Positions 32,459 to 51,738 of a stretch of DNA of 64,000 nt are shown here, in pieces. This stretch comes from Halorussus vallis. GTDB taxonomy: Archaea > Halobacteriota > Halobacteria > Halobacteriales > Haladaptataceae. The stretch is taken from assembly GCF_024138165.1 (NCBI RefSeq), contig NZ_CP100000.1, forward strand, positions 1,054,001-1,118,000. Direction: 5' to 3'. Within the stretch, counting starts at the first letter, position 1, and the number at the start of each line of letters is the position of its first letter. Made by a program: the position numbers and the translations under genes. The notes beneath the pieces were generated by a model. That model was not told the DNA's origin, ran no database searches, and saw nothing but the letters and a program-made list of their open reading frames with translations.

Positions 32459-33190
32459 TCATCCCGCCGCCCGCCCGAGGAGCCTCGCGACGACGACCAG
32501 CGCGTAGAACGACAGCGCGAGCGCCGCGACCTCCCCGGGTCGACCGAGCGCCGCGAGCACCGCCAGCGCGCTCGCGGTCACGGCCGCGACGCCGAACGCG
32601 GCGAACCAGCCGACGAAGTAACCCGCGTCGACCGCGGTGCGCCGCAGCGCGCCGCGGTCGAGTGCCGCCCGGACGGACCCCCGGTCGGCGACCCCGACCA
32701 GCGCGGCCGGCAGGAGGTAGGCCGCCCCGGCCGCCAACACCAGCGCGACGGTCCCTGCGCCGTACACCGAGAGCGTCCGGACGAAACCCGGCGTTCCCGC
32801 TCCTGCCTGCGTGGCACCGACGGTGATTAGCAGGACCACGAGCGGCCCGGCGAGGTAGCCCGCCGAGACGGCGAGCGCTCGCAGGCCGTCGGCCGCGAGC
32901 GCGCCGAAGTCGGCGAACGCCGGGAGCGATGCGGTGCTTCCGGCTTCTGAGTCGAGGCCTCCGGAGTCCGGAGGGTCGGCGTCGGCGCGTTCCGCGCGGG
33001 CCGCGGCCGCACCGGCCCGGAGGACCGCCATCGCGTAGCCCGCCAGGAGGACCGCCGGGACGAGCGCGAGAATCGCCAGGAAACCGAGGCGGGCGAGGAT
33101 GCCGGCCGCGAGCGCGAGGACGGTCCCCACGAGCAACGCCTCCTCGCGGCGCTGACCTCGCAGCAGGTAGCTTACGGCCTCGCGGAGCAT
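32459..33190 (-). CDS. DUF4013-like membrane protein
   Basis: A 243-residue polytopic protein. The order MLREAVSYLLRGQRREEALL, GYAMAVLRAGAAA, then FADFGALAADGLRALAVSAG matches the DUF4013 layout seen in its two relatives nearby, though the middle loop is longer and Ala/Ser-rich (residues about 65-90). About six helices. Function unknown. It lies upstream of the methyltransferase on the same strand, 49 bases apart. Confidence 0.75.
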   Translation of the reverse strand: MLREAVSYLLRGQRREEALLVGTVLALAAGILARLGFLAILALVPAVLLAGYAMAVLRAGAAAARAERADADPPDSGGLDSEAGSTASLPAFADFGALAADGLRALAVSAGYLAGPLVVLLITVGATQAGAGTPGFVRTLSVYGAGTVALVLAAGAAYLLPAALVGVADRGSVRAALDRGALRRTAVDAGYFVGWFAAFGVAAVTASALAVLAALGRPGEVAALALSFYALVVVARLLGRAAG

Positions 33191-33585
33191 GCCCGACGGT
33201 TCGAGCGAGGGAGGATAGGTCTGGCGTCTCGACGGTGATGGGAGTAAGTGGTTGCCGGGAATCCGTCCGCGAACACTACGTTTGTAGAAACCGCGGTGAT
33301 GACCGCCTCGAAAGCCCCCGCCCGCTACGCTCCCGCGGCTCACTGCGGTCCTCAGCACTCACTTCGTTCATGCCTGCGGTCCTTTCGTCGCCGGGGTTCG
33401 CGTAGCGGGCGGCCCCTTTCAGTCCCGCCCCGGAGGAAGGTGTCGCCGGGCGTTCCCGTCGGTTGGTCGGCCGGGCGCTTTCAGGGGTCGGTGTGGCTGA
33501 GCGCTCCTCAGCAGTCGCGCTCAGAGCTATCGCTCGGTGGAACGATGTAAAACGTCGCAAAAGGTCGTCTCGGTCGAAATCGGAT
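33191..33585. other. Intergenic stretch holding structured element copy 1
   Basis: About 395 bases between two leftward DUF4013-type genes. Apart from the stem-loop element, the rest shows no gene. Open frames here translate the repeat and recur in many haloarchaeal genomes as spurious proteins, in my recollection. Confidence 0.5.
33310..33420. repeat. Structured intergenic element, copy 1
   Basis: Arms at 33310-33330 and 33400-33420 pair as 5 bp (GAAAG/CTTTC), a symmetric 3x3 internal loop of C residues, then 13 bp (CCGCCCGCTACGC with its complement). The loop is 69 bases. It is followed by AGTCCC and preceded by ACCGCCTC. Two more copies with the same layout occur at 45505-45617 and 50927-51045. 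All three lie between two leftward genes. It could be a structured 3'-UTR/intergenic RNA or a palindromic element. Confidence 0.8.
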
Positions 33586-45354: not shown

Positions 45355-45695
45355 TACGTGCTATTTGGTTGGTTGGGGTGGATAAGGGTGTCGTCTACGG
45401 GTGCATTCTAGTTCTGGGTGGAGGTGAATGGCCGGTGAACCAGACAGCCAAGGTGGGACGTTCTACGTCTGCATCGACCCGACGGTGACCGCAGTGACCG
45501 CTTCGAAAGCCCCCGCCTGCTCCGCTCCCGCGGCTCGCTGCGCGCTTCAGTCGCTCACTGCGTTCGCTCCTTCCAGTGCTTACTTCGCCGGGGTTCGCGG
45601 AGCAGGCGGCCCCTTTCAGTCCCACCTGTCGGTTGTTCGGCAGGGCGTCTCCGGTGGTTAGTGTAGATTTACGAGACGATTCCGCGGTTAAGCGT
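45355..45695. other. Intergenic stretch holding structured element copy 2
   Basis: About 340 bases between two leftward genes. It is filled mostly by the stem-loop element and its conserved 5' flank (GACCGCTTCGAAAG). I see no protein gene. Confidence 0.5.
45505..45617. repeat. Structured intergenic element, copy 2
   Basis: Arms at 45505-45525 and 45597-45617: 5 bp GAAAG/CTTTC, a 3x3 C loop, then 13 bp (CCGCCTGCTCCGC with its complement). Compared with copy 1 the stem differs at two positions (C to T, A to C) and each has the matching change on the other arm, keeping the pairs. The loop is 71 bases and shares its ends (TCCCGCGGCT and TCGCCGGGGTTC) with copy 1. Confidence 0.8.
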
Positions 45696-50801: not shown

Positions 50802-51117
50802 GCGGGGGTAGCTTTGCGGGGTACGGTAATATAGGTGGGACTTCGGGGGTGCGGGGCGATTTCGAATGAGATTGGCCGTGTTCGCTTGCCTCGTACCGCC
50901 GGGAACAGCGTGACTGCAACCGTCTCGAAAGCCCCCGACCGCTCGCGGTCGCTCAGCGACATATCCGGGTCGGGCCTACGGCCCTCCCCGAACAGGGGTC
51001 GCTGAGACGACCACGGCCTTCGGCCGCGAGCGGGCGGCCCCTTTCAGTCCCACCTTGCCAGTAGGTTCGCCGAGTACTTTCGGAGGAAAATCGCACCGAG
51101 CGCTTCCAGAAAAACAG
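50802..51117. other. Intergenic stretch holding structured element copy 3
   Basis: About 316 bases between two leftward genes. The central 120 bases are the third stem-loop element. Nothing else is recognised. Confidence 0.5.
50927..51045. repeat. Structured intergenic element, copy 3
   Basis: Arms at 50927-50948 and 51024-51045: GAAAG/CTTTC, the 3x3 C loop, then 14 positions (CCGACCGCTCGCGG opposite CCGCGAGCGGGCGG) with one A-G mismatch. It has an extra inner helix (CGCTCAGCGAC with GTCGCTGAG...) not present in the other copies. The flank AGTCCCACCTT matches copy 2. Confidence 0.75.
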
Positions 51118-51738
51118 TCAGCCGAGCACGGCCGGCAGTTCGAGTCCGTATTCGGCCCCGAGTGTCGCGAGCGCCGCGAATCCGCGGAAGGCGTAGCCGA
51201 ACACCAGCGCGGCCGGAATCGCGCCGGCGAGTAGCGCACGTATCGGGGAGGTGTCGTGGACGATTCGCAGGCCGCCGAGGAACAGCACCGCGCCGTAGAC
51301 GGCGCAGGCGGCCCGAATCCAGGGACTCGGGATTCCGGCGAACACGCACGGGGCGGTGGCGTAAGCGATGACCTGCACCGTCTCGCTGATGCCGGCGCGC
51401 TCGCGGACGAACGGCATCAGCAGGAGCGTCTGGACCGCGGCGGTCAGGTGGAGCACCGCGGGGGCGACGAACAGCGCCGCCAGCAGGAGTCCGAACACCG
51501 CCGCGAGCGTCGGGTGGGTCCCGAGCGTCGGCGCGGCACCGTCGACCAGCGCGAACCGCGTGGCCTCCTCTAGCAGGACGACGACCACGGCGAAGACCAG
51601 GCCGGGGGCCTGGTCGCCGGGCGCGACGCCGCGCTCGAAGAACCGGCGGGGGTTGACCAGCACTTCCGCCCACGCGCGGGCGAGGCCGGCGGGGCCGCGC
51701 TCGCGTCCGCCCGTGGGGTTCTCGACCCACTGCGTCAC
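51118..51738 (-). CDS. Yip1-family membrane protein
   Basis: A 206-residue protein with about five helices. LARAWAEVLVNPRRFFERGV at the N-terminus and the hydrophobic runs FALVDGAAPTLGTHPTLAAV, TVQVIAYATAPCVFAGIPSP and VYGAVLFLGGLRIVHDTSPI match the Yip1/YIF1-like haloarchaeal membrane family. The role in archaea is unknown. It is seven bases from the thymidine kinase stop and same strand, so likely downstream in one transcript. Confidence 0.82.
   Translation of the reverse strand: MTQWVENPTGGRERGPAGLARAWAEVLVNPRRFFERGVAPGDQAPGLVFAVVVVLLEEATRFALVDGAAPTLGTHPTLAAVFGLLLAALFVAPAVLHLTAAVQTLLLMPFVRERAGISETVQVIAYATAPCVFAGIPSPWIRAACAVYGAVLFLGGLRIVHDTSPIRALLAGAIPAALVFGYAFRGFAALATLGAEYGLELPAVLG

Follow-up and report, generated by a model that had tools for sequence, protein, structure and literature searches.

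Stem-loops between genes of Halorussus vallis as probable copies of a palindromic DNA element of haloarchaea

Three stem-loops and the anatomy of their core

The stretch of DNA analysed here, referred to as the window, comprises 64,000 nucleotides (C1:1054001-1118000) of the 5.05 Mb genome of Halorussus vallis and contains exactly three copies of a stem-loop repeat, all of them where an earlier note on this DNA had located them (Table 1). Two DUF4013 genes enclose copy 1; copy 2 has Elp3 on one side and a weak PAP2-like gene on the other, and both neighbours of copy 3 are small hypothetical genes. The GAAAG and CTTTC ends and the internal loop of CCC opposite CCC described in that note were found in all three copies. 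Copies 1 and 2 have 13-bp stems free of mismatches (arms CCGCCCGCTACGC/GCGTAGCGGGCGG and CCGCCTGCTCCGC/GCGGAGCAGGCGG, respectively), and they differ, as had been claimed, at two stem positions where both arms are altered together. The stem of copy 3 (CCGACCGCTCGCG/CGCGAGCGGGCGG) contains one A.G mismatch, and its interior forms a three-way junction, unlike copies 1 and 2, which therefore places copy 3 in a second subtype. Folded as single-stranded DNA, copies 1, 2 and 3 reach z-scores of -3.6, -3.0 and -6.4.

Table 1 Positions of the repeat copies, their flanks and associated features
Feature	Position	Strand	Basis or remark
Copy 1 core, type B interior (GAAAG-CCC-13 bp stem-interior-stem'-CCC-CTTTC)	33310..33420	+	fold and covariance match
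Copy 2 core, type B interior	45505..45617	+	orthologous site in relatives empty, type A or type B
Copy 3 core, type A interior (three-way junction)	50927..51045	+	fold and covariance match
5' flank of copy 1, weakly conserved; family consensus approximately GCAACGACAGCAACGGTGACCGCCTC	33277..33309	+	flank information profile, 71 copies
5' flank of copy 2, weakly conserved	45472..45504	+	flank information profile, 71 copies
5' flank of copy 3, weakly conserved	50894..50926	+	flank information profile, 71 copies
3' flank of copy 1, conserved, AGTCCCGCCC	33421..33430	+	flank information profile, 71 copies
3' flank of copy 2, conserved, AGTCCCACC	45618..45626	+	flank information profile, 71 copies
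3' flank of copy 3, conserved, AGTCCCACC	51046..51054	+	flank information profile, 71 copies
About 300 bp extra relative to relatives, between the DUF4013 gene pair, approximate extent	33240..33560	.	protein-match spacing
OB-fold-linked element, L041	2501-4258		
OB-fold-linked element, L044	2501-4287		
OB-fold-linked element, L046	2501-3884		
OB-fold-linked element, L078	208-1683		
OB-fold-linked element, L110			

The core reads GAAAG, CCC, a stem of about 9-14 bp, an interior of type A or type B, the complementary stem, CCC and CTTTC, and is 111-123 bp long in most copies. Its constant ends, GAAAGCCC and CCCCTTTCAGTCC, are invariant in 23 of 23 aligned copies. In type A interiors, which form the three-way junction, the internal loop of the main arm is asymmetric and a small side hairpin is often present; type B interiors, as read from the alignment, have conserved TCGCTGCG and GTGCTT.CGTCG segments with small internal loops, and are the commoner type among copies read outside Halorussus. 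Conservation extends into the flanks, weakly over about 33 nt on the 5' side and strongly over about 10 nt on the 3' side (71 copies).

Smaller repeats accompany some cores. A degenerate tandem repeat of about 31 nt (CGGTTGGTTCACCGAGCGCTTCCGGTGG) occupies the 3' flank of copy 1 (33431-33560) and is also present in the 3' flanks of other copies, and degenerate extra 5' ends (CTCGAAAGCCCCCGCCCGCTCGCC...) stand in tandem about 60 nt upstream of cores L026, L028 and L001. Perfect hairpins with loops such as GCGAAGC and GCAAAGC are nested within cores L011, L023, L116, L164 and L200, as if small hairpin modules had inserted into one another.

Copy number, placement and exchange between sites

A whole-genome covariance search had been proposed in the earlier note. 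With a model built from 23 copies and a threshold of E <= 0.01 it returned 81 matches, 79 of which were analysed further, giving about 80 copies overall including the three in the window. The genome contains 55 occurrences of the pattern CTTTCAGTCCC and none of its reversed form. All 79 copies are intergenic according to our own codon-score gene finder, which was tried on the window. By gene setting, 36 are in tandem as in the window, 12 in tandem but reversed, 20 between divergent and 10 between convergent genes, and one is unassigned. The observation that the stem-loops lie between two leftward genes thus holds for all three window copies, but across the genome it is a bias rather than a rule (36:12, two-sided binomial P = 0.0007; bottom strand sense in 36 of 48 tandem settings). 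The GAAAG end points toward a start codon in 56 of 78 copies, mostly 100-230 bp away. Strand does not vary in any pattern along the chromosome (runs test, P=0.38), and a replication-strand bias was rejected on this basis.

Within Halorussus the number of copies per genome ranges from none (G009) or one (G013) up to at least 86; a copy in Halorussus halophilus lies at NZ_CP044524, 380157-380275. The exact end pattern CCCCTTTCAGTCCCRCCC was detected in 203 of 391 haloarchaeal genomes and 61 of 86 genera (reversed control, 0), including Haloarcula, Haladaptatus, Halobaculum, Natrinema, Natronococcus, Haloparvum, Halovenus and Halobellus, and copies are plasmid-borne in three genera. A viral origin was rejected, as just two viral contigs and no phage records matched.

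Some copies occur as facing pairs. In H. vallis their 3' ends point inward and are 107-311 bp apart (L016, L028, L056, L052, L067, L068, L070), and pairs about 33 bp apart are found in Haloarcula and other genera (L091, L093, L108, L121, L137, L139), where the spacer is in some cases palindromic around GGTTGATCAACC. In other species, the site beside the homologue of the window gene at 51118-51738 is occupied by a different intergenic repeat of haloarchaea, CACAGCACCGCAACCGC..CCTCCCCAGCCGATTGC..CATCCCTCGCGCG (L272, L275, L276, L277, L279), and similar sequence forms the 3' flank of about 12 copies in H. vallis.

Comparison of orthologous sites revealed both presence or absence of the repeat and exchange of its interior. 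The protein matches of the DUF4013 pair are 399 bp apart here versus 72-184 bp, with no core, in 13 relatives, and the start of the extra segment falls a short way upstream of the promoter that serves the gene at 32459-33190. The site upstream of Elp3 was compared across 18 Halorussus genomes, of which 14 were informative and the other four uninformative: it is empty in six (G016, G015, G008, G013, G009, G005), carries type B in H. vallis and G006 and type A in G011, G014 and G004, and is shortened in G007, G002 and G001. The interior is thus exchangeable at one site while the ends and orientation stay unchanged. At the site of copy 3, type A is present in G006, and other relatives are empty or have another repeat.

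The core of copy 1 is 95-96% identical to that at C1:1436934, although the flanks of the two are unrelated. More generally, core pairs that are 92-97% identical have 5' flank identities of 0.43-0.70, compared with 0.57 for random pairs. Near-identical cores in flanks as unlike as those of random pairs indicate that the core is the unit that is copied or converted, and the present comparison fits either movement of the core or its conversion between sites. Ectopic gene conversion readily occurs in haloarchaea and can also give similarity restricted to the core. Many copies are old, since numerous species carry one at an identical site with unchanged orientation. No target-site duplication was evident at the DUF4013, Elp3 and copy 3 sites, and the idea that the CCC/CCC loop is itself such a duplication is unsupported, since old copies keep the loop unchanged and deletion gave rise to the short form of the close pair G014/G004. 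That pair, the only close one, records a loss and not a gain, and near-identical genomes yielded no clean case of recent insertion. Two further observations count against a mobile element: the DUF4013 insertion, at about 300 bp, exceeds the core, and a neutral mobile element does not call for the 36:12 orientation bias.

A constrained fold and its likely medium

The earlier note had tied its proposal of a selected RNA or DNA fold to paired substitutions beyond those separating copies 1 and 2. Such substitutions are numerous in type A, where the 23 copies have two-sided changes at 17 of 37 pairs (79 cells versus 6 one-sided) and covariation reaches 0.271, against 0.081 +- 0.009 after shuffling (0 of 500 as high) and at most 0.067 after sliding. 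In 76 distinct copies from many genera, 96.8% of the first nine stem pairs are Watson-Crick versus 55.5% after shuffling, a value biased upward by preselection of this set for at least 8 of 9 pairing, which leaves the variety of pair types unaffected. A constrained fold with a constant CCC/CCC loop therefore stands from that proposal, but paired changes alone are not proof of selection because template switching from arm to arm makes them too. Copy L008 (C1:644089-644218) is the case in point: in no other aligned copy is the CCC/CCC loop replaced by CCCCC/GGGGG, which pairs fully, and this change from CCC to GGG is the footprint of arm-to-arm copying. A better sign of constraint is supported by the loops, as CCC/CCC and the small loops of types A and B are kept unpaired at the same positions in copies across the class.

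On balance, the stem-loops in our view probably belong to an interspersed palindromic DNA element of haloarchaea that is non-autonomous. A DNA repeat is favoured by the mixed orientation, by copies that separate divergent genes, by strictly Watson-Crick changes, by slippage deletions at the stem base and by plasmid-borne copies. Short forms without a hairpin were detected in 41 of 391 genomes; of the 73 that were listed, 44 retain just the self-complementary base of the stem (for example CCGG or CCGCGG), as expected from replication slipping over an extruded hairpin. In the close pair, the core of G014 is full length, and at the same site G004 lacks the interior, lost between GCT repeats; G013 also carries an element there. 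Among about 1460 outer-stem cells, G.U pairs number 10 on the top strand, and A.C on the top strand, equivalent to G.U on the bottom strand, numbers 26. Scarce G-U pairs, slippage deletions and arm copying in L008 therefore favour folding as DNA. One strand is nevertheless singled out by the wobble asymmetry, the tandem orientation and the triloops: C-GNA-G is found on the bottom strand in 62 of 98 perfect triloop hairpins within the H. vallis cores, and on the other strand in 2. As DNA, d(C-GNA-G) is an unusually stable triloop. These loops were at first suspected to be UNCG RNA tetraloops, a reading rejected because they are 3 nt in phase and read C-GNA-G on the bottom strand. Of the two outcomes anticipated in the earlier note, an RNA or a strand-symmetric DNA element, mixed orientation and plasmid copies thus favour DNA, but the tandem bias is not strand-neutral.

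The same strand preference is what a structured RNA could explain. The bottom strand (5'-GGGACUGAAAGGGGC...) would then be transcribed, mostly within the 3' untranslated region of the gene upstream or else as a small RNA, and would act by binding a protein; copies would have spread through the usefulness of that RNA. The very strong covariation, the conserved internal loops, the bottom-strand bias of both triloops and tolerated wobbles, and the sense orientation of the bottom strand in three quarters of tandem settings would all agree with this, and covarying stems with conserved loops are likewise features of Rfam families. We nonetheless regard it as unlikely. With 20 copies flanked by divergent genes and 12 of the 48 in tandem settings antisense, a consistent sense orientation is absent; the flanks contain no AT-rich promoter-like block that could serve as a promoter of their own; G-U pairs make up only about 1-2% of outer-stem cells; Rfam gave no family match over the window, nor around copy 1 at E up to 10; and members of the genus manage with one copy or none. 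A role as transcription terminator or 3' mRNA stabiliser was rejected, because convergent settings (10) are fewer than divergent ones (20) and an association with gene 3' ends would give the reverse.

Placement raises the further prospect of a cis-acting DNA site upstream of promoters, such as an insulator or a replication or nucleoid site, selected for its position. Consistent with this are the exclusively intergenic copies, the GAAAG end facing a start codon in most copies, the excess of divergent over convergent settings and the retention of orthologous copies in several species. However, the same promoters lack the element in related species and one genus member is free of it, the neighbouring genes have no evident common function, and strand follows no pattern along the chromosome, which together make this explanation rather improbable. 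It is less probable again that the fold is under no selection, the repeats being inert debris formed by template switching between the arms of quasi-palindromes and homogenised by gene conversion: arm copying in L008, slippage deletions and paired changes almost without intermediates speak for such a process, but it would erase the mismatched positions that stay unpaired across the class, and the ends are invariant.

Candidate movers and related repeats

The unit of the palindromic DNA element favoured here is a core whose single strand folds back on itself and which has constant ends, an outer stem free in sequence but strictly complementary, and one of two swappable interiors. An enzyme supplied in trans may read the ends and the constant unpaired bulges of the folded strand, which might then be copied or moved into intergenic sites, often just upstream of promoters. 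Cores could be swapped between copies via gene conversion or repeated insertion, and lost again via replication slippage over the hairpin. We infer that the mover would be a dedicated enzyme and that the bottom, G-rich strand would be the one recognised. The more specific proposal of a class-wide, strand-specific mobile element of single-stranded DNA, with its identity in the fold (unvarying internal loops, C-GNA-G triloops and stems free in sequence) and moved by a haloarchaeal enzyme other than Y1/RAYT, is put forward only tentatively, and we hold it to be possible rather than probable.

A Y1/RAYT transposase was rejected as the mover, given that PF01797 is absent from G001, G002, G003, G010 and G011, which hold from 33 to at least 86 copies each; element ends were found at 0 of 28 Y1 loci. 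No autonomous long form was detected among 276 ends examined up to 3.5 kb, matching ends never being more than 284 bp apart. In Haloarcula plasmids, Haladaptatus, Halorussus and HArc-gm2, a type A element is followed after 400-1200 bp by a similarly oriented gene for an OB-fold SOSS-B/RPA-like protein (Table 1; L110 by end pattern only). This protein was rejected as a required partner, as its gene is present in the copy-free G009; G016, with 44 copies, has no close homologue.

The nearest published counterparts, likened by their described properties, appear to be the SMR-A repeats and bacterial REPINs. SMR-A of Haloquadratum walsbyi (HqIRS42/43/55), whose mobilisation has been called enigmatic, is by description also haloarchaeal, about 110 bp long, non-coding and present in tens of copies, with prominent inverted terminal repeats and no reported target duplication (PMC3119063). 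It was, however, found in a single species and lies mostly inside the near-terminal palindromes of PATE/IS605 elements (PMC3119063), whereas the present family is class-wide and located between ordinary genes. The element flanks contain no ends of IS605 recognisable by eye; a short form GAAAGCCCCCTTTCAGTCCC is present (L016), and that of the close pair is the deletion product described above. PATEs, derived from IS605, are similarly haloarchaeal, non-coding and multi-copy with palindromes near their ends, but they have two near-terminal palindromes around a core instead of one hairpin (PMC3119063).

REPINs and REPs are short, palindromic, nearly all extragenic, present in tens to hundreds of copies and believed to be mobilised in the form of a folded single strand (PMC3116915). 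The present family differs in having no Y1/RAYT link, a larger interior and conserved bulges. Membership of the REPIN/RAYT system was rejected: the repeats are palindromic, multi-copy and extragenic, but a flanked single-copy RAYT is missing, and the foot of the hairpin has the constant ends given above in place of a GTAG- or CGTC-type tag. MITEs are likewise small and non-autonomous with inverted terminal repeats; here, neither a parent transposon sharing the ends nor a target duplication was seen, and the interior structure is conserved, which MITEs do not need. A solitary CRISPR does not fit. The literal ends were not found as a published motif in the open-access literature, which leaves room for an earlier description; the sole related match, a Desulforudis CRISPR repeat sharing CTTTCAGTCCC, was taken as chance. 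Neither a 2025 survey of REPs in bacteria and archaea nor one from 2010 covering 104 structured RNAs names a haloarchaeon.

For the haloarchaea, these results describe a repeat read by its shape more than by its letters, with two swappable interiors on the same ends, in about half of the genomes sampled, and in some of them it makes up a good share of the intergenic sequence. They also carry a caution, as strong covariation by itself does not imply an RNA. Together the copies may offer a large natural data set on the recognition and spread of a DNA fold without a visible transposase.
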